64,000 nt of DNA from Melioribacteraceae bacterium (GTDB lineage: Bacteria; Bacteroidota; Ignavibacteria; Ignavibacteriales; Melioribacteraceae). The notes under the pieces are model-generated. The model saw only the letters and a program-made list of their open reading frames with translations, had not been told where the DNA came from and made no database searches. Within the stretch, counting starts at the first letter, position 1, and each line of letters opens with the position of its first letter. Shown here piece by piece: positions 10,611-64,000 of the stretch. The position numbers and the translations under genes were made by a program. The stretch covers positions 62,001 to 126,000 of the forward strand of contig JAGFIY010000104.1 of the NCBI GenBank assembly GCA_024103215.1, in the 5' to 3' direction.

Positions 10611-12209
10611 TTAATAATTCATCAACATTGATTGTGCTAAATCAAATAGAGAAATTGATTTCATAATTTGTCTATCGTCATAAGTTCTGATTCTAAACCA
10701 TGCTTCCTCACCATAAATCTCTCTTGCAAGATAAGCTTTAAGAAGTTTTTCGATCTCATCCGAAGATTTCTCAATATCAGCTTCCGAAAGTTCCGTCTCA
10801 TAAGTTATAAAATCATAAAAGCTGGATAAAAATTTAGGTTTCAGTTCTTCATAGAACTTATTGAAATTCAACTTTTCAAAGACTACATCTGATTTTTTTA
10901 ACTCATTGTTATCAAAATGAGATCGTACATACTTATAAAATAAGTTTTTTCGAAGAAGAGTTACTGTAGTTACACTTATCGAATCATTATGAACTATATA
11001 ATCCGGTGTTATACCACCTTTTTCGTAAACTTTGCGCCCGCCTTTTGTAGTAAATACTTTAATTGTCGTATCAGCCTCAGATGTATGATTATAATTCTCA
11101 CCGTCCTGAAGAGAATCAACATTGTAATGAAGATAAGATAATTTTTTATTTGAATAATCTTTTTGAATAGCTCTGCCGCTCGGAGTGAAATATTTCGCAA
11201 TGGTTAATCTAATTGCAGATTTATCATCAAGCATAACGGGTCTCTGCACAAGTCCTTTCCCATAAGTTGTTGTTCCAACAACCAATCCTCTGTCCCAGTC
11301 TTGAACAGCTCCTGCAACAATTTCCGATGCACTTGCACTACCTTCGTTAACAAGAACAATCAAGGGAATCATATCCGTTTTATCATCCTCTTCGGCAAAA
11401 AATTCCTCATCGAAGCTGTTGTCTCTCCCTTGTGTATATACAATAAGCTTATCCTTAGTAAGAAAAAAATCAGCAACCTCTTGGGCTTGATAAAGATAAC
11501 CACCGGGATTATCACGAAGATCGAACAAAAGATTTTTCATCCCTTGATCAAGAAGAGATTCAAATGCAGTTTCTAATTCCTTTGAAGAAGTCTCTGAAAA
11601 TTTTGAGAGTCTCACATAACCAATCGAATCCGTAATCATAAATGCCGCATCAACTGAGTTCAATGCAATTTCGTCACGGATAATATTGTACTCGATTTCT
11701 TCATCGGTCGAAGGTCGGTAGATTGTAATATTTACTTCTTCACCTTTCTTGCCTCTAAGTTTCATCATAACATCGCGGTTAGTTAACTCAATTGCCGATT
11801 CATTTTCAATTTCAATAATTCTATCGCCGGATTGTATTCCCAGAATCTCGCTTGGTCCGCCTTTTATTGCTGTAACAACATTTATCGTATCGTCGATGAT
11901 TGTAAACTCGATGCCAATGCCACCGAACTGTCCGGTAAATTCATCGTCTATTAAATTTTGATCAACAGGCGGAATGTAAACGGTGTGGGGATCAAGATTC
12001 TTAAACATCCCGTTAATCGCATCTTCGATCAACTTTTCGGATGAGATTTCGTCGAGGTAGTATTTTTTTGTGTAATAATAAGCTTCCTCAAACTTGTCAA
12101 GCTCACCATTTTCTTCACTTGGGAAATATTTTGTTATATTCAATCCAATACTGACGCCTACTAAAAGAAGCAGTATGGCAGAGAAGAGACTAACTTTTTT
12201 ATTGAACAT
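10611..12209 (-). CDS. S41 family carboxyl-terminal processing protease
   Basis: A 532-residue periplasmic serine protease of the CtpA/Prc type. An N-terminal membrane anchor or signal (about 5-27) is followed by a helical region, a PDZ domain (about 85-170, GGIGIEF...GDRIIEIENE) and the S41 core. The catalytic serine sits in NEGSASASEI and the catalytic lysine in TTYGKGLVQR. The tail beyond about 400 is family-variable. Such enzymes trim or degrade envelope proteins from the C-terminus. It overlaps the upstream Wzi-like gene by one base (TAATG) and heads into the carbonic anhydrase-like gene. Confidence 0.92.
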   Translation of the reverse strand: MFNKKVSLFSAILLLLVGVSIGLNITKYFPSEENGELDKFEEAYYYTKKYYLDEISSEKLIEDAINGMFKNLDPHTVYIPPVDQNLIDDEFTGQFGGIGIEFTIIDDTINVVTAIKGGPSEILGIQSGDRIIEIENESAIELTNRDVMMKLRGKKGEEVNITIYRPSTDEEIEYNIIRDEIALNSVDAAFMITDSIGYVRLSKFSETSSKELETAFESLLDQGMKNLLFDLRDNPGGYLYQAQEVADFFLTKDKLIVYTQGRDNSFDEEFFAEEDDKTDMIPLIVLVNEGSASASEIVAGAVQDWDRGLVVGTTTYGKGLVQRPVMLDDKSAIRLTIAKYFTPSGRAIQKDYSNKKLSYLHYNVDSLQDGENYNHTSEADTTIKVFTTKGGRKVYEKGGITPDYIVHNDSISVTTVTLLRKNLFYKYVRSHFDNNELKKSDVVFEKLNFNKFYEELKPKFLSSFYDFITYETELSEADIEKSSDEIEKLLKAYLAREIYGEEAWFRIRTYDDRQIMKSISLFDLAQSMLMNY

Positions 12210-13876
12210 TATAATTTAACTCCAAGCCCAAGAATAGATTGCACATACGCTTCTGATCTATTGATGATTAAACTACGGTCAACAATACTCAACATTCCAC
12301 TAATAACAATATTTTTTATCGGTTCATACCGCAGTCCTAATTCAAAACTATTAGAATATTCTAAAATTCCATCTAGATGTCCTGCATTCTCACTGTCTCC
12401 AACTCTGTGGCCTACTTCAAACTCTCCGCCATGATTCACAAGCAAATTGCCTTCCGTATCATATTCATTTGCTCCGTGAATTGTATGAACATATTTAAAT
12501 GAAACGTCAAGTCTATTCAATGGAAAATAATCTAATTTGAAAATAAAATTTGAACTGTTCGGTTGAATTGTTCCAACAAGCGGGAACCCTAAACTTGAGT
12601 AGTTGTTTTCTTTTATTCTATGAGTATAAACGTAAGGATCGACTCTAATAAATTGAAATGCAGCATCAATGGGAACATAATTATAGAAAAGTGAGGTTGA
12701 TGCTCCTGCTTCTAATACCGTTTGATTTCCATACCACTTAGTTCCCAATTGACCGAAATTGATATCATCAATTAAAAGTGTTGCATATAATTTTAATCCG
12801 GATATCGAATTATTTGAGATATCAAAAAATAATAAAGAATTATCCCTGTCCTGATTGATATGTTCTATGCTTTTATAAAAATTGAACGGATTCAAATAAG
12901 ACAGATCCATGTTTCTGTTAGCATAAATTATTACTTCACCGACTCCGAGGGAAAGATGGTTTGAGATTTTAACACCAAATCTGTGGTAAACGAAATATTT
13001 GTCTGCAACAGTTTTTATTCCTTCCTGCACTGGGTCAATATAAAGCGAATCCGAACCAAGAAGTTTCCCATGATAATGAGAAAACGTAAATGCTTTATAC
13101 TTAAAGCCAAGATGCAGATAATCCATCGGAGGCGAGTTATCGGAGAGCACTGTTTTTATTATTCCTTGCCCCAATCTCACCCTATCTCTTCCGATTTTAA
13201 ATCTTATAAAGTCATAATCAACAGCAAAATAACCTTCGGTTTCATCATAATATTCGTTTCCAATACCTTCTTGAAACCTTGTAAGTTTATAGTTGTATCT
13301 CAATCCTTCGTATGTTCTTGCCAGATCTTTATCACCGAAGTATGAGCCGTTAGTTGCTTTTATAAAAAAACCAAAATTATCTAAAAAACTTCCCCTCAAA
13401 ATTCCGCCGAAGTTAAAAAGCGTTGAAGTTTTATTCTCATCCAAATTAGAATCATGCTTATATATGTTAATTCCATTGGCAACAAAATTCAAGAAGATAT
13501 TTGCCCTTGAACTATCCTCATAGAAATATATAAACTTTTCTTTCTGTGAAAAATGATCTTCTATAGAATTTCCCGAAAACAAAGATGTATAATTTTCTGT
13601 TGTACGATTAATATCAAATTCAAATTCGTTTAGAAAATCAATCAATCTTCTTTTATCTGAATCAATCAGTTTCTCTTTATTGCCACTAAGTTCGATCAAG
13701 TAAGAAGAAATTTCCCTTCTTGTTTTGGGTATTTCAAAAACATCGTAGTTTTGAATCAAATTTAATCTTTCCATTCTTTCTAGAAACGGATAGATATTAT
13801 GATCAACTTCGACATATCCGGTTTGCGCCTCAAGTAATACCGGTAGCATAAGCAGCAAAATCAAATATTTTTTCAA
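12209..13876 (-). CDS. Outer-membrane barrel protein, capsule assembly Wzi-like
   Basis: A 555-residue protein with a clear signal peptide (MKKYLILLLMLPVLLEAQ). An early segment with the pattern PFLERMERLNLI...KTRREISSYL is followed by many alternating aromatic/hydrophobic strands, as expected for a beta-barrel. The order matches the Wzi-like capsule assembly family common in this group; E. coli Wzi is an outer-membrane lectin that anchors capsule. The neighbouring glycosyltransferase and DUF2279 genes agree with a surface-polysaccharide or envelope role, but no capsule cluster is present. The family assignment is probable and the function is inferred. Confidence 0.7.
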   Translation of the reverse strand: MKKYLILLLMLPVLLEAQTGYVEVDHNIYPFLERMERLNLIQNYDVFEIPKTRREISSYLIELSGNKEKLIDSDKRRLIDFLNEFEFDINRTTENYTSLFSGNSIEDHFSQKEKFIYFYEDSSRANIFLNFVANGINIYKHDSNLDENKTSTLFNFGGILRGSFLDNFGFFIKATNGSYFGDKDLARTYEGLRYNYKLTRFQEGIGNEYYDETEGYFAVDYDFIRFKIGRDRVRLGQGIIKTVLSDNSPPMDYLHLGFKYKAFTFSHYHGKLLGSDSLYIDPVQEGIKTVADKYFVYHRFGVKISNHLSLGVGEVIIYANRNMDLSYLNPFNFYKSIEHINQDRDNSLLFFDISNNSISGLKLYATLLIDDINFGQLGTKWYGNQTVLEAGASTSLFYNYVPIDAAFQFIRVDPYVYTHRIKENNYSSLGFPLVGTIQPNSSNFIFKLDYFPLNRLDVSFKYVHTIHGANEYDTEGNLLVNHGGEFEVGHRVGDSENAGHLDGILEYSNSFELGLRYEPIKNIVISGMLSIVDRSLIINRSEAYVQSILGLGVKL

Positions 13877-17789: not shown

Positions 17790-18441
17790 TTTCATCATCC
17801 TCTTCTTCCATATCTTCGATATCAACTTCATTTTCTAGTTGTTCTTCGAGTGCGTTCATCATTATTCTATTTCGCTGTTCTATAAAATCGGCATCCTTCA
17901 TTATCTCCTCTATTTCGCGCGGCTTTGGAAGGTCTTCCAAATTATTAAGTCCAAAATATTTTAAGAACTCTTCGGTGGTTGAATAAAGTAAAGGTCTACC
18001 GATGGTTTCAGCTCTTCCTTTAATCGTTATAAGATTTTTTTCGAGCAACGTGTTTATCATATAATCGCTGTTAACACCGCGTAACGTTTCAATTTCCGGT
18101 TTTGTAATAGGCTGTTTATAGGCAATAATAGCAAGGGTTTCAAGCGCTGCTTGGCTCAATCTTCTTTTTGATTTTTCAGTTGAAAGATAACCGAGATATT
18201 TTGAAAATTCCGGTTTTGTTGCGTAAGAATATCCATTAGCAATTCTAACAATTTCGTATGAACTTTCCGATTCCTTATATCTTTCGTTCAACTGATTAAC
18301 AGTATCATCAACGTCTTTATTGTTGATATCAATATCCTCGCCGTCAATATCTTTAATTGCTTTTGTTATCTCTGAAGCGGAAATAGGTTCGTCTGCGGCA
18401 AAGATTAAAGATTCGATTATGTTGAAATAAATCTTATCCAT
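17776..18441 (-). CDS. scpB: Segregation and condensation protein B
   Basis: ScpB is the winged-helix kite subunit of the Smc-ScpAB condensin that organises and segregates chromosomes. The protein shows the family start MDKIYFNIIESLIFAADEPIS, two winged-helix units and the conserved central run LSQAALETLAIIAYKQPITKPEIE. The C-terminus is a long acidic tail (many Glu/Asp after about residue 195). I chose the ATG at 18441; nine more codons upstream are open but lie inside scpA. It overlaps scpA by 8 bases and rluB by 14 bases. Confidence 0.93.
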   Translation of the reverse strand: MDKIYFNIIESLIFAADEPISASEITKAIKDIDGEDIDINNKDVDDTVNQLNERYKESESSYEIVRIANGYSYATKPEFSKYLGYLSTEKSKRRLSQAALETLAIIAYKQPITKPEIETLRGVNSDYMINTLLEKNLITIKGRAETIGRPLLYSTTEEFLKYFGLNNLEDLPKPREIEEIMKDADFIEQRNRIMMNALEEQLENEVDIEDMEEEDDENAVE

Positions 18442-19153
18442 TTCCCAAGCTGTAAAGTTCGAAGTCATTGAAATTTATTGATTCACGCAGACCTAATTTC
18501 CCCATTTTGACCATTTCGAGTAAAGCTATAAAAGTAACTACAATTCTAATTTTTTCCCGCATATCTTTTACTAATTCAAAAAACTTGACACTTTTACCTG
18601 CTTCGATTTTCTCGGATATAAAATCGATTTGCTGTTCAATCGAAACGTTTATTTTTCTTATCTGATGAACATTTCCCTTTGGTCTTTCTTCGAGTACTTT
18701 TCTGAATGCTTTCATCAAATCAAAAAGAGTTATGTTCTTAAGCAGTGCATCAAACTCCGGGGGTGCTTCTTTTTCATCGGCATCATAATAACCTCTAAAC
18801 TGCCTTTTGCGCTGATTTGATTCCATCAGTGCAAGCTCCTCTGTCATTTCTTTGTAACGTTTATATTCAAGAAGAGCCTTTACCAAATCAGCCCGGGGAT
18901 CAATTTCCTCACCTTTATCATCTGTTTCTCTCGGAAGAAGCATTCTCACTTTGATCTGCATCAAGGTAGAAGCCATCAGAATAAAATCACCAGCTGCTTC
19001 AAGGTCGAGTTGTTTAATTAGAGCAACGTAAGAAATGAATTCCTTGGTGATATAAGAAATTGGTATATCGTAAATATCAAGTTCATCCCGCTTAATAAAA
19101 AATAGAAGAAGATCTAGCGGTCCTTCGAATTGTTGTAAACGAATCTTATACAT
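18434..19153 (-). CDS. scpA: Segregation and condensation protein A
   Basis: ScpA is the kleisin that bridges the two Smc heads. The 239-residue protein opens with the diagnostic FEGPLDLLLFFIKRDELDIYDIPI stretch near residue 9 and carries the middle ASTLMQIKVRMLLPRE segment. The C-terminal winged helix (FIALLEMVKMGKLGLRES) binds the Smc cap. It overlaps trpS by one base (TAATG) and scpB by 8 bases, so expression is linked. The smc gene itself is not in this window. Confidence 0.95.
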   Translation of the reverse strand: MYKIRLQQFEGPLDLLLFFIKRDELDIYDIPISYITKEFISYVALIKQLDLEAAGDFILMASTLMQIKVRMLLPRETDDKGEEIDPRADLVKALLEYKRYKEMTEELALMESNQRKRQFRGYYDADEKEAPPEFDALLKNITLFDLMKAFRKVLEERPKGNVHQIRKINVSIEQQIDFISEKIEAGKSVKFFELVKDMREKIRIVVTFIALLEMVKMGKLGLRESINFNDFELYSLGNG

Positions 19154-54659: not shown

Positions 54660-55271
54660 TTAATTAAATCTTCGGTAAACTCCTACGACCACACCAACTA
54701 TTTTAAATCCAAAGTAAGTTTTGGATATAACAATCGGTTCGTATTCCGGATTTTCCGAATGGAGTTCAATCTTGTCATTATTTGAATAATATTTTTTAAC
54801 AACGGCCGAATCATCCAAAACAGCTACAACCAGTTTTCCGTTTTTTGGTGATAAATTTGGATTTACTATAACAATATCTCCGCTGAAAATATATGCATCT
54901 TTTAAACTGTCGCCTTTCACCTTTAACAGAAATGATTCCTTTGGCATATAAGCAATTGAAGGAAGCATCACATTATCTATCGAATCGGGATAAATCGTAA
55001 GCGGATTGCCGGCAGCTACTTCTCCTAAAATAGGTGTGGGTGAAAAAATTTTTTCTTCAATGTTAACCGAAATACCGCGTGATGATTTTGGATGTCGATT
55101 TATATATCCTTTTCGCTCTAAAGAATTTAGATGCTGCTGGACGGTTGATCTATTTGATAAATTCAGACTTTCGGCTAGCTCGGCAAGTGTCGGAGGCATC
55201 CCGAAATTAGATTTATGCCTAATAATTTTTTCCAATACTTCTCGCTGTCGGGGTGTAATGTCAGATTTCAT
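54660..55271 (-). CDS. lexA: LexA repressor
   Basis: The SOS repressor. The N-terminal winged helix-turn-helix (MPPTLAELAESLNLSNRSTVQQHLNSL) is followed by a self-cleavage site Ala-Gly in GEVAAGNP and the catalytic dyad Ser in GDSLKDAY and Lys in SAVVKKYY (Ala90-Gly91, Ser125 and Lys162 counted from an ATG three codons upstream). I start at the ATG at 55271, because the earlier ATG at 55280 lies inside the operator palindrome. The gene sits under a good promoter with that palindrome at its start site, so autorepression is likely. It leads lexA-ogt-GNAT. Confidence 0.95.
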   Translation of the reverse strand: MKSDITPRQREVLEKIIRHKSNFGMPPTLAELAESLNLSNRSTVQQHLNSLERKGYINRHPKSSRGISVNIEEKIFSPTPILGEVAAGNPLTIYPDSIDNVMLPSIAYMPKESFLLKVKGDSLKDAYIFSGDIVIVNPNLSPKNGKLVVAVLDDSAVVKKYYSNNDKIELHSENPEYEPIVISKTYFGFKIVGVVVGVYRRFN

Positions 55272-55275
55272 AATT

Positions 55276-55293
55276 ACCATACAAATGTATGGT
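55276..55293. promoter_or_regulatory. Probable LexA operator (palindrome)
   Basis: ACCATACA-AA-TGTATGGT is a perfect 8+2+8 inverted repeat. It begins 3 bases past the -10 box and covers the expected transcription start of lexA, where a bound repressor would block initiation. It does not resemble the Bacillus GAAC-N4-GTTC box. Confidence 0.7.
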
Positions 55294-55343: not shown

Positions 55344-58300
55344 TTAAGCAAAAATACGTTTGAGTGAATCAACTAATTTATCGTGGAGAACCGGTTTAGA
55401 AATGAAATCGTTGAAACCGGCTGCAATGAATTTTGCCTTATCACCCGGAAGAACATATGCAGAAACAGCTATTACCGGAACATCCTGGTAAGCAGGCATT
55501 TTCCTTAATATATGAAGTGCATCAAGCCCGTTGTACTCACCTTGAAGATTAATATCCATAACAATAAAATTAAAACTCTTTGATTTTAAAAGCGGAATTG
55601 CTTCCTCAAAGCTTGCGCAGAACTCAACGCTTTTTAACTCTTTCATCTGAACTTTAAAAAGTATTTGCGAATCAACTTGATCTTCCACGCATAGACAGTT
55701 AAGTTCGGAAAGTTCTAATTCAGCAAGTTTTTCTAACCTGGGTTCGTGCATTTGATGAACAGCTTCAGTTTTTTCTTTACTTGCTTTTACAAGTGGTTCC
55801 TGTTTTTCTTTCTTCGGTTCTAATTTAGGTTCTTTTACTTTTACTACATCCCTCGTTTCTTTTCCTTCAAGAGAAACTGTCTTTCCTAAATTCTTTGCTT
55901 TGGATTCAGCTTCAAGATTTATAGGAAAAATTATAGCATATTCTGTTGCTTCATTATCTTTCTGAAATACCTCTATCTTTTCGGCAAGGATTTCAACAAG
56001 TTTTCGCGCAAGTCTAATGGTAAATCTGCTTATACCAAAAGCATGACGAATTATCGATTCGTCGACAGTGAAAAGCTCTCTTAAATTTTTCAGCAGCCCC
56101 GCAGAAACACCTGTTTTTGAATCTTTAACACTTATAATAAACTCTTTATCGTCCCTGGGATAAGCAGAAAGATATATTTTCTTCTCTTTGGTCATTTGAA
56201 TTGAAAACTTTAGAAAGAGCGAAACTAAAGTTAGGAAACGCTGTTTGTCGGAATGAAAAGTCAAAGAAGAAGAAATTTTGCTATAATCAAGTTCAACATT
56301 TTTTGATTCTGAAGTTTTTTTAATGTTTTCTTCAATATTAGGAAGAAGTTCAACAAAGTTTATTTCATCGGAAGAAATATGGATTTCGTTCTGCTCCATA
56401 TGAGAATATTCAACAGCTGTATCCATCGTTTGGAGCAGCACTTTTTGATTTTCCGATATGATTGAAGCAGCTTCCTTTTGATCATCGCTCGGATTCGGAA
56501 TGCTCTCCATTAGTTCCTGCGTAAATCCTACAATTACATTTATTGGCGTCAGCAATTCGTGGAATAAATTTGAAAGGAATGACGGGTCAAGTTTTCCTGT
56601 AGTGATCTCGGATTTGTTTAAACCTTTCTTCGATGTTTCTTCGACTAACTTCATCTCTTTCAGAATTAATGAGAAAGATTCTATCTCATTGTTAAATCCA
56701 ATATGCGGCGTTGATACAAGTTTTACCTCGCTCAAATCACCTTTAACATTCTTCATACTTATAATGAACTGCTGTGTATCCTTAGCGTCGGAGTGAAACA
56801 CATTTGTGTTTATTTTTGCCCGGTCTCCGTCGGATAACAGACTTAAAAAAGGACGTTCTTTAAGATCTTGGAAAATAAATCCAAAATTATCAGTAACGGA
56901 TTTATTACAGTAGGTTATAAATCCATCCTTATCCGTAAATATGACCGAATCACTAGTGTTTTCGAATAATACTTTGTAAATGTTTAGCTCTTTTTTGTTC
57001 TCGACGTTCTTCGTCACATCTCGAATTACATTCAGTTGACTAGCTTTATTTTCAAAAGTTGTGGATACTTTATTTATTTCCACCAAAACTGAGGTACCGT
57101 CTTTTTTCTTGTGTCTCCAAGGTCCTGTAAATACGCCTTCTTTCGATTTCTTGTTTGAACTTTCAAGTAGTGTTTGAATATCTTCCGGAGCATATAAATC
57201 CGTTAGATCCATCTGTAAAAATTCATCACGTTTATAGCCGTACAATTTTAGTGCCGCATCATTCACATCGAGAAACTTTAGATTTTCGACTTCATAAAGA
57301 AACACCGCTTCGGGCGTATTTTTCATAAGTAATTCGTACATATTTTCCTTTGAAGATTTCTTACTACTTATATCCGTAATTTCCATGAAAGTTAAGATAT
57401 ACTGATTGTTACCTTTAGAATCTGTTTCTTCAGCAATTCTGATCCTCATTTTCTTTAGTTTATCATTTACCGAGAAAGTATGCCAAATATCTACGTCAAA
57501 TTTTCGATTCTCAATATGCAGCTTAACTTTTTTGAATAGATCCGAATCGGTAATCTGTTTTAAATCACTTCCCGCTAATTTTTGTGATTGTTCTAATTCA
57601 AAAATTTCAGAATATTTTTTGCTTACTGTAACAATGGAAAATTCGTTATTGATTAGAATGAAAGGTATGCTTAATTGTCTCAATAAAGCATGCTCAGTAT
57701 CGATTGATTCTGATGAGGCAAATAATTCTGTCTCTGTTTTTGCAAATCCAATCATTGCAATAACCTGTTTGTTCAAGTCCAATAATGGAATTTCTGATAT
57801 TATAACTTTATTACCGAACTGCTTTTCCAAACTGCTGATACCATGGTATCGTATTCCTTGAGAAGTTTCCTTGATATATGAATTAATGGCGTTATAAAAT
57901 TGAGATAAATATGTAGGAAGAAATTCAGTTTCACTTTTGTTTTCAAGTTGTTCTTGTTTAAGATTAAAAACCGAAGCAAATAGTTTGTTTACAATAACGT
58001 ATTTTGCATCCGGCATCTTTATCCAAAACGGACATTTAAGCTCATCAATTTTTTTTCTTATCCGCTTTTTATCAACCAGTGTAAAAGGAAAAGATGCTTT
58101 AATATCTGCTACTATTTCAAGAATTTCCTTATTAGCTAAACTTTCAAGTTCGATCGCACCTTCCATTTTTAAGGGGGCTTCGGTTTTTTCGTTTATCGAT
58201 TTTCCATACAATAAAGAAAAAGTAATAATAAAGTTTTGAGTATTATCTACTGTTATTGGCGTGATTATCACATTAAAATAATCGGGGTCTTTTTTATTTC

Positions 58301-58547
58301 TAAATGTAATTTCTGCTTCCTCGGTTACCGATTTCAGGTAATTCTTAGATTCGAGTAAAAGTCTTTCCAATGTTTGAATTGATGAACCGGAAAAATAGCC
58401 GAGAAAATTCTCCCCCTCATTTAGTCCGAAAATCAAGTTATTAGTGACTTTATTAAATTTCCTTAACTTAAAATCAGCATCAACAATAAATGATGGTTCC
58501 GAAAGATTATGAAAAAATACTTGCTCTATATTTGGGTCTAACAACAT
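55344..58547 (-). CDS. Multi-PAS hybrid histidine kinase-like protein with degenerate ATPase and a receiver domain
   Basis: A 1067-residue cytoplasmic protein without clear membrane helices. Five PAS-like units lie at about 10-115, 172-270, 287-395, 405-515 and 525-635. A HisKA-type segment has His663 in LFHELLTPIN. The ATPase-like region (about 760-880) lacks the N-box Asn (Leu777 in its place), has DSKTG where DxGxG is expected, and has a poor G2 box. A charged linker (880-940) leads to a receiver domain (950-1067) with phosphoacceptor Asp998 and Lys1051. It may be a pseudokinase that receives or senses rather than makes phosphate. It starts one base after the Fn3 gene. Confidence 0.85.
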   Translation of the reverse strand: MLLDPNIEQVFFHNLSEPSFIVDADFKLRKFNKVTNNLIFGLNEGENFLGYFSGSSIQTLERLLLESKNYLKSVTEEAEITFRNKKDPDYFNVIITPITVDNTQNFIITFSLLYGKSINEKTEAPLKMEGAIELESLANKEILEIVADIKASFPFTLVDKKRIRKKIDELKCPFWIKMPDAKYVIVNKLFASVFNLKQEQLENKSETEFLPTYLSQFYNAINSYIKETSQGIRYHGISSLEKQFGNKVIISEIPLLDLNKQVIAMIGFAKTETELFASSESIDTEHALLRQLSIPFILINNEFSIVTVSKKYSEIFELEQSQKLAGSDLKQITDSDLFKKVKLHIENRKFDVDIWHTFSVNDKLKKMRIRIAEETDSKGNNQYILTFMEITDISSKKSSKENMYELLMKNTPEAVFLYEVENLKFLDVNDAALKLYGYKRDEFLQMDLTDLYAPEDIQTLLESSNKKSKEGVFTGPWRHKKKDGTSVLVEINKVSTTFENKASQLNVIRDVTKNVENKKELNIYKVLFENTSDSVIFTDKDGFITYCNKSVTDNFGFIFQDLKERPFLSLLSDGDRAKINTNVFHSDAKDTQQFIISMKNVKGDLSEVKLVSTPHIGFNNEIESFSLILKEMKLVEETSKKGLNKSEITTGKLDPSFLSNLFHELLTPINVIVGFTQELMESIPNPSDDQKEAASIISENQKVLLQTMDTAVEYSHMEQNEIHISSDEINFVELLPNIEENIKKTSESKNVELDYSKISSSLTFHSDKQRFLTLVSLFLKFSIQMTKEKKIYLSAYPRDDKEFIISVKDSKTGVSAGLLKNLRELFTVDESIIRHAFGISRFTIRLARKLVEILAEKIEVFQKDNEATEYAIIFPINLEAESKAKNLGKTVSLEGKETRDVVKVKEPKLEPKKEKQEPLVKASKEKTEAVHQMHEPRLEKLAELELSELNCLCVEDQVDSQILFKVQMKELKSVEFCASFEEAIPLLKSKSFNFIVMDINLQGEYNGLDALHILRKMPAYQDVPVIAVSAYVLPGDKAKFIAAGFNDFISKPVLHDKLVDSLKRIFA

Positions 58548-58548
58548 C

Positions 58549-60378
58549 TTATTTTGCTCCTGGTGTTTGAGTAACCGGATCAGAATACTCTGAATAACCT
58601 TGGTTAAAAATTGCTCTGATTCGGTAAGTGTATGTTACGCCAAAGTTCAATCTCTCATCAAGATACTGGAAGGTATTTGGTCCGGATTGTTTTACTACAC
58701 GGTATTCGGAATCCTGCTGCCAGCTTAATTTTCGTTCGAGGCTGAAACCTAATTTCGGTTCAACAATATCGGTCCACTCCAATAATATCGAATTATTTGG
58801 TCTTGATTCTGCTGTTAAAATTATTCGGTCGGAACCGGATGTTCCGTCAGTTCCAACAGTATTTGAAAATTCGGAAGTTAATTCGCCTCTGTATGAACGA
58901 ACTTTGAAGTAGTAAGTAAGTCCGTTATCCGGGAGAAGAACATTATCGGCAATTGTATTCGGCGGATAAGATTTATATAAGAAAAATTCATCATTTACAC
59001 CGTCTTGTCTCCATAATTGGAAACCGTCTTCGTCGCTCGAATTATCCTCCCAGTTCAACAGGTATAAATTAGTGTCAACTTCGGAAATTCTCAAATTTGT
59101 TGGAGGATTCGGCGGAAGTTCAGGAACAATCACAACAGCCTCATTTGAATAATCGGTATAGAAATCGTATGTAGTATAATGTCTGGCTCTATAATAATAA
59201 GTATTTCCCGCTACAACGGTATTATCGGTAAATGTTGTTACGTTTGCATCAACTTCGGCAAGTTCTGTGTAAGAACCACTTGCCCCGCGTTTTCTTTCGA
59301 TGAACGTTCCATCCTCATAGAAAGTATCGTCAGTCCATTCAAGAACAACGTTCCTTGCTGTACTGTCAAAAGTTGCCTTCAAGTTTTTTGGGGGAGGAAT
59401 ATCTTCCGGAAGCGTTGTAACATTTGCGGGTGTTGACCATTCACTTTCCGAAGTGCTGGTAAACGATTGCACACGATAACTGTAAGTTGTATTCGCGATT
59501 AATCCTTCATCCAAATATTCCTTGTTGGATACAATTGCGATCTGCCGATAATCCGTGCTGGTTAAACTTGATCGCTGAATTCTGTAGCCAAGTTTTGGGA
59601 TAGGATTATCGTCCCAATTTAACTGAACTTTAGTCGCACCAAGCGCAGTTGCGGTAAGATTAGTTGGTGCTTCATCGGGATCGTCAGCAGTGCTTACTTC
59701 ATTTGAAAAAGGGGATCTGCCAAATTTATTCTTTGCAGAAACTTTATAATAATAAGTTATAAATCTCGAAAGTCCGTCGTCGTTTGTACGTTCGGTGTTT
59801 GCCGGGAAAATCTTATAGGGTGTAGTGCCGTAACTTCCATCGGCACCTTCCTTCCTCCAAAGTTCATAGTTCGATTCGTTATCAGAACTATCGTCCCATT
59901 CAAGATTAACGGAAAAGCTTGTGGCATTCCCGTCTAATTTTGTTAGTCTTAAATTTATGGGAGCTCTTGGCGGACTAGTGTTTTCCTGAACATAAATTCT
60001 TTCCTGAACTTCACTTGTTGTATACTTATTTTCGGTAGTCGCTACGTTTACAAAATAACTTATTCGAGTAAAAAGCAAGGAAGAGTCGATGTTCAAATAC
60101 AATGGAGTTTCATTGCTGTTTCCTTCTGCTTCAAATATCTCTACAAAATCACCGTTATTGATTATGACTTCAAACTGCTTAAGTTCCTTTCTTGCGGGAT
60201 TTGTTATTTTATAAGTGATAAAATTACTCCCGACCTGAACAGTATCACCAGTCGTCGGATCCAGCAGAGTAATTGTTACTTTATCATTAGGATTATCCAC
60301 GCCAGATTCTACGCAGCCAAACATAATGATTCCCGTGAGCAGAAGCAGAATTCGAATAAATGAATATAGTTTGTCCAT
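58549..60378 (-). CDS. Fibronectin type III repeat lipoprotein
   Basis: A 609-residue lipoprotein (lipobox LLTGIIMFGC). About five Fn3 modules make up most of the chain; their borders show APINLRL, APTNLTA, PPKNLKA and PPTNLRI-type starts, W-D/T-D centres (LEWDDSS, LNWDDNP, LEWTDDT, LNWEDNS) and YYYKV/TYTYRI ends. A shorter Ig-like domain precedes them. Such arrays usually present or space out surface ligands; no enzyme domain is visible. The ATG at 60378 is chosen because it opens the signal peptide. It lies between the deacetylase-like gene and the PAS kinase. Confidence 0.8.
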   Translation of the reverse strand: MDKLYSFIRILLLLTGIIMFGCVESGVDNPNDKVTITLLDPTTGDTVQVGSNFITYKITNPARKELKQFEVIINNGDFVEIFEAEGNSNETPLYLNIDSSLLFTRISYFVNVATTENKYTTSEVQERIYVQENTSPPRAPINLRLTKLDGNATSFSVNLEWDDSSDNESNYELWRKEGADGSYGTTPYKIFPANTERTNDDGLSRFITYYYKVSAKNKFGRSPFSNEVSTADDPDEAPTNLTATALGATKVQLNWDDNPIPKLGYRIQRSSLTSTDYRQIAIVSNKEYLDEGLIANTTYSYRVQSFTSTSESEWSTPANVTTLPEDIPPPKNLKATFDSTARNVVLEWTDDTFYEDGTFIERKRGASGSYTELAEVDANVTTFTDNTVVAGNTYYYRARHYTTYDFYTDYSNEAVVIVPELPPNPPTNLRISEVDTNLYLLNWEDNSSDEDGFQLWRQDGVNDEFFLYKSYPPNTIADNVLLPDNGLTYYFKVRSYRGELTSEFSNTVGTDGTSGSDRIILTAESRPNNSILLEWTDIVEPKLGFSLERKLSWQQDSEYRVVKQSGPNTFQYLDERLNFGVTYTYRIRAIFNQGYSEYSDPVTQTPGAK

Positions 60379-60405
60379 ATATCTAATCACCAATGGTGTT
60401 ATAAA

Positions 60406-62094
60406 TCAATAATTACCGGAATTTTCAAAAACCAATTCAATCGACTCTCCCCTTTTAATTGATTTTACAACGATAATCCTTTTACCGGAAGTATCAATAA
60501 AATCTCTTTTAATTAACCTATTGTCAGTGATCGAATAAAAATTAAGAATTTCATTTGAAACTATGGTTACATCATCCATTGATTTTTCACCGGAATTTTT
60601 AATTGCAAAACTATATTTGGAAGAATTCAGCTTATCTACGGACACATGTAAATTCCGGTGATCATTTAATCTTCCGAAAATCTCTTTCGAACTTGTAATC
60701 CATGAATTATTCTGATTAAAATAAGAAATTGCTCTTAAAATCTCAGTTTTATAATCACAATTTTTAAAAGCACTTCGCGGAATGGATAAATTAAAATAAA
60801 GTCCTTCTTCATCGATTTTTGCAAATAAATTCTTTGTGAAATGAATAAATTCGTTACAATCTTCAAGTGAAAATTCTTTAACAGTAAGCGCAGCATCAAT
60901 TTTTAACGGCGTTAGAATTAAACTCCCCTCAACAAGACTGTAATAGTTTTCATTAAGAAGACTTTTACATTCACAGTATAACGCATCAAACCCTTCATCC
61001 GCAAGTGCTTTAACATTTCCCGGACTTAACAAAGTCGTATTCAGAAATACTGTACTAAGTTTTTCGCCAAACGATGATTCAAAATAGTTGTTATAACTTG
61101 TGATTGTAGTTTTAAACTTATCCGAGGAAAGAAATTTTTCGGACATGTCAAGAGTAAGATTCTTGTAACTATTCAATTTCAATTTTGATTCAGAGAAAGG
61201 AGTTACGACCAAATCAAAATCAATTTTATTTTTCTTAAAATAAGTTACAAGTTCATCCTCAAAATTATTCAATTGAAGTGCAACCGCAGAATTTTTTGCA
61301 TCGGGCCAAGGACTGATTGTAACAACCGGTTCAGAGAGCAAATCCTTTAATGCATTAAGATACAACCTCTCTAAATTTTTAATGTTGTTCGAACTGTTTA
61401 ATGGATCAAAACTTTGAAAACCAAACCAATAAAATTTGCCATTATTAATTTTTCCTTTTATGATCCCAGGATATTTTGAAAAAGGATTGTATCCTTGAAA
61501 AATCTCTAAATTTGTCTGCCAATAGCCGAAATTTTCAATATCATTTTTTCCCGAGTGAATTGTTAATGGAATAAAATTATCATTAAAGTTTGTTACATAT
61601 CCAAACTCCAAACCGCTAGTTACCGGCTGTTTTGCTTTAAGCGAGAGCAAGTATTTCATTCCTGGATGAAAATCATTCTTGTAATATTCAAACCCCAAAA
61701 TTGAACCGAAAAGGTTATTCTCAAACTGTGTACCGTATCTATCCATTATACCAAATTCACCGTTAATTAATAGATTCCCTCCAATTTCAAAAAAATATTT
61801 TATTTCATCATAAGCTGCATAGTCGACACATAAAACATCAAAGGCAATCAGCAACGAATATCTTTCATCAAGTTCATTATCAATTTCGTCATCATTTACG
61901 ATATCAAATTCATATCCATTACGGAACAACAATTTTTTCCATTCTTCAAAGTAGGAGTTATAAGGTTTGTTTAGTTTTTCTAAAACAGATTGTGTTCTAG
62001 ATGGATTAACGAGAAGAATTTTTGCGTTTGAAGGAAAAACAAATTTGCCCGGGAAAAATATTACGAATACTATGTATAAAAATAAATTTTTCAT
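60406..62094 (-). CDS. Exported GATase-like/deacetylase-like protein (paralogue B)
   Basis: A 562-residue exported protein (signal MKNLFLYIVFVIFFPGKFVFP) that I do not recognise as a characterised family. An N-terminal class I glutamine-amidotransferase-like fold (about 25-240) shows the pattern YSLLIAFDVLCVDYAAYDEIKYF then GGNLLINGEFG and ends GKFYWFGFQSFD, without a catalytic Cys. A middle domain (about 260-465) resembles polysaccharide deacetylases but has no metal DD or HxxxH. The C-terminal 90 residues look Ig-like. It has the same order of parts as the next gene upstream. The ATG at 62094 opens the signal peptide. Confidence 0.7.
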   Translation of the reverse strand: MKNLFLYIVFVIFFPGKFVFPSNAKILLVNPSRTQSVLEKLNKPYNSYFEEWKKLLFRNGYEFDIVNDDEIDNELDERYSLLIAFDVLCVDYAAYDEIKYFFEIGGNLLINGEFGIMDRYGTQFENNLFGSILGFEYYKNDFHPGMKYLLSLKAKQPVTSGLEFGYVTNFNDNFIPLTIHSGKNDIENFGYWQTNLEIFQGYNPFSKYPGIIKGKINNGKFYWFGFQSFDPLNSSNNIKNLERLYLNALKDLLSEPVVTISPWPDAKNSAVALQLNNFEDELVTYFKKNKIDFDLVVTPFSESKLKLNSYKNLTLDMSEKFLSSDKFKTTITSYNNYFESSFGEKLSTVFLNTTLLSPGNVKALADEGFDALYCECKSLLNENYYSLVEGSLILTPLKIDAALTVKEFSLEDCNEFIHFTKNLFAKIDEEGLYFNLSIPRSAFKNCDYKTEILRAISYFNQNNSWITSSKEIFGRLNDHRNLHVSVDKLNSSKYSFAIKNSGEKSMDDVTIVSNEILNFYSITDNRLIKRDFIDTSGKRIIVVKSIKRGESIELVFENSGNY

Positions 62095-62162
62095 TTTCTG
62101 ATACCGGGTGTACACACATGTTGCTTTAAGCTGATTATTGTTATATCAGTTTGTTTTAAAGT

Positions 62163-64000
62163 TTATTCTCCAACGTTTTCGAAATCGATTAGAAGCAGCC
62201 TCGAATCGCCCGGTTTCAGATCTTCTATAAATAAGTAAAGAACGTTTGAATTTGGATCAAACTGAAATTCCGGGATTATTGTGTTGATGATATCGGAGCT
62301 AATTTCAATATTTTTTACCGGTTTGTTCATATTAACCTGAACGACAAAATCATCGGTGTTTCGCTCTTTTGGATTTGATACTTCAACAACAATGCGTCTT
62401 TTACTCCTAGTTTCATATCTAATTTCGATACCGCCTCGTTTGAACCACCATTCTTTAAGTTCTTGAATTGAAGTCACCCAAACATTTTTTTCACGCAGGT
62501 ATTTCATTACGTCGTTTATTACCGACGCATATTCAGCTTTCAACTGGTAATCAGTGTGCACCTTAAGTACATAAAGCCCGCCTTCGAAGAGAAGCCTGTC
62601 TATATCTTCTTCATAGGTATATCTCTGAAAATTAAGATCGGTTAAGCCATACTCACCTATAATCTTTTTATCATCACGCGAGGTAATTGTTATTCCTAGG
62701 AGATTATGATCGCCTCTGATAAGTTTTTCGGGAACCGATCTGTCTGTAAGCGAATCTGTGATAACGAAATCCATTCCAGCAGACGATAATGCCTGGAGTG
62801 TATTTTCATCATAAAATCCGAAGAGAGGCATAATTCCTTTTACTCTAGTGTTAGTTATTTTACTAAGAGTATCACTTCCAACTACAATCGAAGAATACTG
62901 AACATCTTGCTGATAAAGATTAGATAATGTGTCCCCAATAAATTCCAGAAAACCGACATCCACAATCGCACCAAAATCCCCGTATTTTGAAAGAGACTTA
63001 ATCAAAGAGGGATGTTGAGCTGCAACATAAGGGTCAACAAAAAAAGTTGCTGGATATTTATTTCGTTTTAATATTCCAACAAGATTATTAACGTTATAAA
63101 TCTCTTCGGAAAGCGTTGGAGTAAATATAGCAGCGGCTTCATAAGGTGCAGGCCAGTCTTTCACATAACCGGTCGGTTGATAAGTTAACCAATGGATTGA
63201 ATTAATAAATAAACGATCGAAGAAAATATAATCTTCCTGTTTTCCGATTACCGAGTTCAACTCGAAACCGAACCACACAAATCTGCCTTTTCCGTACGAA
63301 CCGTATGCAATTCCTGCACTTTTACTTATTTCTTCACGCACCAAACCCATCTCGCGACGATAATCGTACCAATAGCTGACTTGAACTGTTCGAGGTTCTA
63401 GTATCTCAGCATATATGGGTCTATCCCAAGTAGCAATGTCAAGAGTGTAACCGGTTGGAATTCCGCCGGTTAGAGGCAAATTTCCTCTCAAGGTATGTAT
63501 TCGTTTAAACTCAGTTCTATCGAGTTCTTTGGTAAATTTCATTCCATAAACTTCAGTAAAAAAGTCCCAACCTCTCCATTTTGCCTCGTCGGAATAAGTA
63601 GCGGTTCCGCTCGTTGCGAAAACGCTTCCACCGGATTCAAGATATTTTTTTATCTGAATTAATTGTTTGTCGCTAAGTGATTTTGATCCGGGAAGAACAA
63701 GAATTCCATAATCGAAAAACTCACCGCGCTCAATGGTTTGGTCTCCGATAATTGTATAATTTTTTTTATGTGATTTCAGAAATGTTTCCCAAGTATCAAT
63801 ATTATCACTTAACCAAGTTGATTCATCACCAAGTAAATTTTGAGTGTACTCAGAATAGAGAATTGCTATTTGCTTATCACCTGCAGATAGGATATAGTTA
63901 ATGTTCTTCTTTGTCGGGAGGATTTCATCAATTTCATAGTTGCCGTAAACACCCTTGAGTATGATTAAATAAACCAGAAGACAAGCCACAAGTAAAACAA
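62163..64000 (-). CDS. Exported GATase-like/deacetylase-like protein (paralogue A), 5' end outside the window
   Basis: A protein of at least 610 residues. The reading frame is still open at the right edge; a GTG at 63989 could start it, but the hydrophobic N-terminus (VLLVACLLVYLIILKG) suggests that the true start lies beyond. After the membrane or signal segment, a GATase1-like domain (about 30-270) has YGILVLPGSKSLSDKQLIQI, then GGSVFATSG and GRFVWFGFELN. A deacetylase-like domain (about 280-510) follows, again without the DD or HxxxH metal sites. The C-terminus (520-608) is Ig-like. The substrate is unknown. Confidence 0.75.
   Translation of the reverse strand, partial: VLLVACLLVYLIILKGVYGNYEIDEILPTKKNINYILSAGDKQIAILYSEYTQNLLGDESTWLSDNIDTWETFLKSHKKNYTIIGDQTIERGEFFDYGILVLPGSKSLSDKQLIQIKKYLESGGSVFATSGTATYSDEAKWRGWDFFTEVYGMKFTKELDRTEFKRIHTLRGNLPLTGGIPTGYTLDIATWDRPIYAEILEPRTVQVSYWYDYRREMGLVREEISKSAGIAYGSYGKGRFVWFGFELNSVIGKQEDYIFFDRLFINSIHWLTYQPTGYVKDWPAPYEAAAIFTPTLSEEIYNVNNLVGILKRNKYPATFFVDPYVAAQHPSLIKSLSKYGDFGAIVDVGFLEFIGDTLSNLYQQDVQYSSIVVGSDTLSKITNTRVKGIMPLFGFYDENTLQALSSAGMDFVITDSLTDRSVPEKLIRGDHNLLGITITSRDDKKIIGEYGLTDLNFQRYTYEEDIDRLLFEGGLYVLKVHTDYQLKAEYASVINDVMKYLREKNVWVTSIQELKEWWFKRGGIEIRYETRSKRRIVVEVSNPKERNTDDFVVQVNMNKPVKNIEISSDIINTIIPEFQFDPNSNVLYLFIEDLKPGDSRLLLIDFENVGE

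Follow-up and report, generated by a model that had tools for sequence, protein, structure and literature searches.

The locus

We analysed a stretch of 64,000 nucleotides, referred to as the window, from Melioribacteraceae bacterium (assembly GCA_024103215.1), which covers positions 62001-126000 of contig JAGFIY010000104.1. The right-hand end of the window carries four adjacent minus-strand genes, here called PDA1, PDA2, FN3 and HK (Table 1). All four open reading frames lie where a first-pass annotation of this DNA had placed them. Of the intergenic gaps given there (1, 27 and 68 bases), the first stands, while the longest possible starts reduce the others to 12 and 47 bases, the larger values belonging to downstream ATG starts. 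This tight spacing agrees with the single transcript that had been inferred for the four genes.

When the window is extended to the right the operon runs on along the same strand, and five further genes are found: SM, GT2, TPR, a KaiC-like gene and GH9. These are numbered on segment L002 (contig 114001-134000), in which a position equals the window position minus 52000. Scanned with Rfam for riboswitches and leader RNAs, the 20-kb locus gave nothing above the gathering threshold.

Table 1. Genes of the operon and one PF00990-matching gene
Feature	Length (aa)	Position	Strand	Basis
GH9 endoglucanase		ends L002 18532	-	Pfam
KaiC-like protein	424	L002 17099-18373	-	Pfam
TPR/beta-barrel outer-membrane protein	958	L002 14216-17092	-	Pfam/NCBIfam
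GT2, processive-type polysaccharide synthase	481	L002 12614-14059	-	Pfam/NCBIfam
SM, small membrane protein	182	L002 12100-12648	-	by eye: one membrane segment, basic stretch, long tail
PDA1	632	window 62163 to past its end (start 61 bases outside, L002 12061)	-	ORF call, assembly, Pfam, model
PDA2	569	window 60406-62115	-	ORF call, Pfam, comparison with relatives
FN3, Fn3-repeat lipoprotein	614	window 58549-60393	-	ORF call, Pfam, orthologues
HK, multi-PAS hybrid pseudo-histidine kinase	1067	window 55344-58547	-	ORF call, Pfam, orthologues
PF00990-matching protein		loci L188-L198; own copy L197 100-1983

Two neighbouring features are recorded for completeness. A gene for a 206-residue protein, judged by sequence to be a LexA-like repressor, follows HK (window 54660-55280), and many relatives (loci L036-L074) have an open reading frame of about 206 residues, matched by size, after HK at a larger gap. 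Far from the operon, window 12209-13876 gives a weak match to the capsule assembly protein Wzi and adjoins an S41 peptidase gene.

Conservation within the Ignavibacteriales

Of 58 related genomes, 50 carry PDA1, and the full-length copies, our own excluded, share 42-67% identity. The named carriers belong to the Melioribacteraceae, the Ignavibacteriaceae and other Ignavibacteriales, and include Stygiobacter electus as well as MAGs that bear the label Melioribacter roseus; for many of the MAGs with PDA1 the label is coarse, e.g. Bacteroidetes. We read the surroundings of PDA1 in 40 relatives, giving with our own a set of 41 loci, several of them truncated at contig ends. The order GH9, KaiC, TPR, GT2, SM, deacetylase-like, Fn3, kinase-like is kept in 40 of the 41. 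Contig ends bear on the counts for the individual genes, which are 41 of 41 for GT2, 40 for SM, 39 for HK, 36 for FN3, 35 for TPR, 33 for the KaiC-like gene and 29 for GH9. Conservation over 40 related loci far exceeds chance.

The spacing of the genes is similarly regular. KaiC-like and TPR genes are separated by -4 to 26 bases in each of the 33 loci, SM and PDA1 mostly share a fixed overlap of 10 bases, and the median gap between FN3 and HK is 8 bases; the distance to GT2 from the gene before it (TPR or an SGNH gene) never falls below 94 bases. The SGNH/GDSL-type protein just mentioned is found in 16 of the 41 loci (e.g. L045 13070-14335), encoded between TPR and GT2, a place where our own genome has none, and possibly acts on acyl groups of a polymer.

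The KaiC-like family is present in 51 of the 58 genomes and its distribution follows that of PDA1: both occur in 49 genomes, neither in six and one alone in three (Fisher p = 5e-6). In some genomes, e.g. G036, G038 and G043, the KaiC-like gene and PDA1 are on different contigs. The two halves of the operon can therefore be separated, which counts against the interpretation that we favour below.

These comparisons bear on the first-pass proposal that the four genes are in themselves a dedicated envelope or polysaccharide sensing system. A PAS/HisKA/receiver protein does adjoin tightly spaced genes for exported carbohydrate-fold proteins, and the envelope and polysaccharide theme of that proposal is backed by the sequence evidence. 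A stand-alone unit is not supported, because a synthase, an outer-membrane exporter and a KaiC-like regulator adjoin it just outside the window. In the relatives the order PDA1, FN3, HK is kept, but PDA2 is present in only about six of the 41 loci, and PDA1 stays with the GT2, SM and KaiC-like genes even in loci that lack FN3 and HK. We consider a self-contained sensing system very improbable, and reject it in favour of a reading in which the four genes make up the 3′ half of an operon for polysaccharide synthesis and export.

An older core outside the order

A search of 296 genomes across the phylum found distant relatives of PDA1 in other families. In seven distant loci (L164, L165, L168, L169, L171, L172 and L173) KaiC, TPR and GT2 genes are followed by PDA1-type genes, and SM is recognised in L164, L167 and L171. 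Several distant loci carry a second PDA copy directly behind PDA1. At L171 a longer antisense open reading frame masked the PDA1 frame in the gene call, which lists the second copy only. Profiles of GH9 and HK had no match in the distant loci, and that of FN3 had one marginal match, on the opposite strand. The core shared with distant families thus predates the four-gene unit of the first-pass annotation. GH9, FN3 and HK count as accessories rather than core, because the searches of the distant families did not recover them; they look like later gains of the Ignavibacteriales. PDA2 may be the same gene as the distant second copy, although a tree of the PDA2 copies has long branches.

Synthase, exporter and endoglucanase

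The best NCBIfam model for GT2 is PgaC/IcaA (TIGR03937), at 210.5 bits and thus below the cut-off of 422.3. The NodC and cellulose synthase models score GT2 below this, and the BcsA model (TIGR03030) gives 76 bits against a cut-off of 699, with no PilZ match. The DxD, ED and QxxRW motifs are kept across the aligned relatives, and the GH9 catalytic motifs DAGD and NE are likewise conserved. The TPR/barrel protein scores 51.5 with the PgaA model (TIGR03939, cut-off 366.65), through its TPR portion only. No solved relative was detected when the beta-barrel profile was compared with the PDB, which again counts against our favoured interpretation.

A conserved GH9 active site invites a different reading, that the locus serves the uptake and degradation of environmental polysaccharide, with GH9 cutting cellulose, the TPR/barrel and Fn3 proteins importing or binding it and HK sensing the products. 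These bacteria are cellulose degraders, and the genome paper on Melioribacter roseus lists GH9 genes as cellulases, while assigning GT2 genes only generally (PMC3534657). The most constant neighbours, however, are a processive-type GT2 and the small membrane protein that partners it, the synthase core persists in distant families without a GH9-type gene, and Pfam recognised no sugar-import gene in the operon. We regard uptake as quite unlikely and continue with synthesis and export.

PDA1, PDA2 and the Fn3 lipoprotein

The two PDA proteins had been described as exported paralogues of one architecture. A GATase/GH42-trimerisation-like N-terminal domain is indeed common to both, below the Pfam cut-off, but Polysacc_deac_1 passes the cut-off in the 632-residue PDA1 only. 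We built an AlphaFold2 model of PDA1 (26 sequences, pLDDT 83), in which a membrane helix is accompanied by an alpha/beta domain, a barrel like that of deacetylases and a C-terminal domain rich in beta-strands. Its Foldseek matches include CE4 deacetylases, a CE4 pseudoenzyme, GH42 trimerisation and ThuA-like domains, human NDST1 and PelA; for PelA (9cgy) the E-value is 5.8e-9, but over the whole chain the TM-score is low and the rmsd high. The structure prediction suggested in the first-pass annotation thus points to CE4, ThuA and PelA folds.

In profile alignments the CE4 metal-binding histidine positions of PDA1 hold other residues, and the CE4 base and metal motifs (D, H-xxx-H) are absent in all the PDA1 rows shown, from near and far lineages. 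These degraded motifs back the earlier description of the carbohydrate folds as non-catalytic. Other, near-invariant residues (TDSLTDRSVP, RDD and YTYEED) suggest that PDA1 keeps a binding role. By its sequence PDA1 is a predicted membrane-anchored periplasmic protein with a degraded CE4 domain. PDA2 is a fast-evolving paralogue of it, apparently exported, without a recognisable catalytic motif. At L073 7239-9056 a PDA2-type paralogue has, unlike other copies, a D...HxxxH CE4 pattern and is possibly still an active deacetylase.

Pfam finds four Fn3 stretches in the FN3 protein. A hydrophobic leader ending in cysteine is present in all 36 orthologues read, in agreement with the predicted lipoprotein, and a lipobox expression is matched by 22 of them.

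The hybrid pseudo-histidine kinase

In HK, Pfam recognises PAS repeats, HisKA and a receiver, with HATPase_c below the cut-off only. The five PAS units claimed at first are only partly borne out, with two of them clear and four stretches in total from PF00989. The receiver is as had been described, and it and HisKA are recognised in 18 of 18 orthologues, HATPase_c in two of 18 (E<=0.01). The N and G boxes of HATPase_c are lost in HK, and this loss of the ATP-binding boxes bears out its earlier description as a pseudokinase. HisKA residues H663, E664 and T667 and receiver residues D998 and K1051 are invariant in the 18 orthologues. The HExxT motif is known from HisKA phosphatases. Kinase activity appears unlikely in most orthologues; HK may instead be a phosphatase or a phosphorelay element, with which HExxT and the receiver are compatible.

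The KaiC-like protein, SM and c-di-GMP

The KaiC-like protein resembles the RecA-like domain of KaiC (Pfam, Foldseek). The Walker lysine is an arginine in most copies, and the catalytic glutamate pair of KaiC, at the position we take it to occupy, was not seen in the copies examined. In the C-terminal 150 residues the predicted order of strands and helices is compatible with GGDEF. Matches to GGDEF_2 in four of 12 and to GGDEF in three of 12 are all below the cut-off, and distant copies match weakly (GGDEF_2 at best 1e-4, GGDEF 0.01, PelD_GGDEF once at 0.09). Aligned by hhalign with the Ignavibacteriales' own degenerate GGDEF family, the tail gave a negative result, which, like the matches below the cut-off, counts against the favoured reading. 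The I-site RxxD is found in most of the distant copies only. Comparing the tail with the PDB gave mainly alpha-helical adaptor proteins, matches that we judged spurious.

In BcsE a KaiC-like NTPase with a degraded Walker A motif is joined to degenerate REC and GGDEF domains, and the single-pass protein BcsF recruits BcsE through a cytosolic tail (PMC7439463, PMC11470070). The end of the SM tail is conserved across the relatives and, by analogy, SM could play the part of BcsF toward the KaiC-like protein.

A PF00990-matching protein of about 620 residues occurs in the 12 genomes searched, usually once per genome, and lacks the GGDEF motif in the copies checked. We do not propose control by c-di-GMP, given that a search confined to PF00990 gave matches without that motif. 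The Ignavibacteriales may lack diguanylate cyclase activity.

Promoters

We scored sigma-54-like sites against the textbook -24/-12 consensus with our own weights, set after the motif had been noticed, and a threshold of 16 of 20.5. Sites scoring at least 16 occur in 85% of the leaders of KaiC-like genes and in 85% of those of GT2, in most cases 23-43 bases upstream of the start. Among 196 other genes the figure is 13%; HK reaches 31%, and GH9, TPR, SM, PDA1 and FN3 0-12%. A TCTCA-N3-TGAGA palindrome, in most cases some 90-125 bases upstream of the KaiC-like start, scores at least 8/10 in 70% of these leaders versus 6% elsewhere. Our own KaiC-like leader has both the sigma-54-like element and the palindrome (L002 about 18408-18423 and 18473-18485); our GT2 leader has neither, a further point against the favoured reading. 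RpoN and about 21 sigma-54 activators are present. A regulon search with TCTCA-N3-TGAGA gave few exact sites, those outside the operon lying near unrelated genes or in coding sequence, and identified no enhancer-binding protein for the palindrome. In most relatives (loci L036-L074), sigma-54-dependent promoters seem to head both halves of the operon, at the KaiC-like and GT2 genes, with the palindrome farther upstream.

The somewhat raised frequency of such sites in HK leaders, together with the lack of HK and FN3 in distant families, would fit a functionally separate HK, and perhaps FN3, that is on the transcript by position only. In 39 of 41 loci HK nonetheless comes after the other operon genes, close behind FN3. 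We think this separation unlikely; it would qualify the export interpretation and not replace it.

Comparison with known systems

PelA has four domains, a hydrolase, a mixed alpha/beta domain related to ThuA and IFT52, a deacetylase and a beta-rich domain (PMC12022489). PDA1 matches the last three, and the operon further resembles Pel in its TPR/barrel exporter and a possible degenerate GGDEF regulator (cf. PelD). It differs in having GT2 in place of a GT4 PelF with PelG, and in a PDA1 that has no N-terminal hydrolase and has lost the deacetylase residues.

The likeness to Pga/Ica (PNAG) systems consists of a GT2 nearest PgaC/IcaA, a TPR and barrel exporter, a small membrane protein and a periplasmic protein of deacetylase fold. 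Here, however, GT2 reaches 210 bits against a cut-off of 422, there is no active PgaB-type deacetylase, and KaiC-like, GH9, Fn3 and pseudokinase genes are added.

With the type II Bcs system of Escherichia coli the operon shares a KaiC-like pseudo-NTPase with a possible degenerate GGDEF domain (cf. BcsE), a single-pass protein with a cytosolic tail (cf. BcsF), and endoglucanase and TPR/barrel partners (BcsZ, BcsC). In contrast, no BcsA with PilZ and no BcsB, BcsQ or BcsR was recognised, the endoglucanase is GH9 and not GH8, the KaiC-like protein has no recognised middle REC* domain, and c-di-GMP is probably unused. The likeness of the KaiC-like protein and SM to BcsE and BcsF is a prediction that does not imply homology.

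A survey of synthase-dependent operons mentions neither Ignavibacteria nor KaiC in its text (PMC7112194), and we found no description of this gene combination in the open-licence literature.

Discussion

Judged from the sequences, the four genes most likely form the downstream end of an operon for synthase-dependent exopolysaccharide secretion that is conserved throughout the Ignavibacteriales. We conclude this because of the gene order, the GT2 and GH9 active sites, the domain content and the conserved core in other families. The operon would represent a new mosaic form within the known types of exopolysaccharide secretion, whose polymer identity and signalling mechanism we infer. Several of its proteins may be enzymes without catalytic residues that now serve as scaffolds or sensors.

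We propose that GT2 and SM would polymerise a beta-linked polymer and extrude it through the inner membrane. PDA1, with PDA2 where present, would act as a non-catalytic, PelA-like guide that binds the chain and leads it through the periplasm to the TPR/beta-barrel exporter. GH9 would trim or release chains, and the Fn3 lipoprotein may anchor or present the polymer at the envelope. The KaiC-like protein, of BcsE-like build, would be tethered to the synthase through SM's cytosolic tail, much as BcsF tethers BcsE. Through its intact HExxT motif and receiver, HK could serve as a phosphatase or phosphorelay element that tunes synthesis or sigma-54-dependent transcription.

More tentatively, and with rather less than even confidence, we suggest a distinct class of machine that is found order-wide and makes a polymer of unnamed kind. 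It would combine a Pga-like synthase, a PelA-like pseudo-deacetylase guide and a BcsE/BcsF-like pseudo-KaiC module, with a pseudo-histidine kinase and sigma-54 in place of c-di-GMP.

What is known of biofilm polymer machines comes mostly from Pseudomonadota and from some Gram-positive bacteria. A system across the Ignavibacteriales that mixes parts of three known systems, with inactive enzymes at its centre, would show which of these parts can be interchanged. How pseudoenzymes guide a polymer, and how such a machine works where no intact diguanylate cyclase was found, both become testable here. The finding also calls for caution in annotation, as a GH9 'cellulase' in these genomes may serve polymer synthesis and not cellulose degradation.
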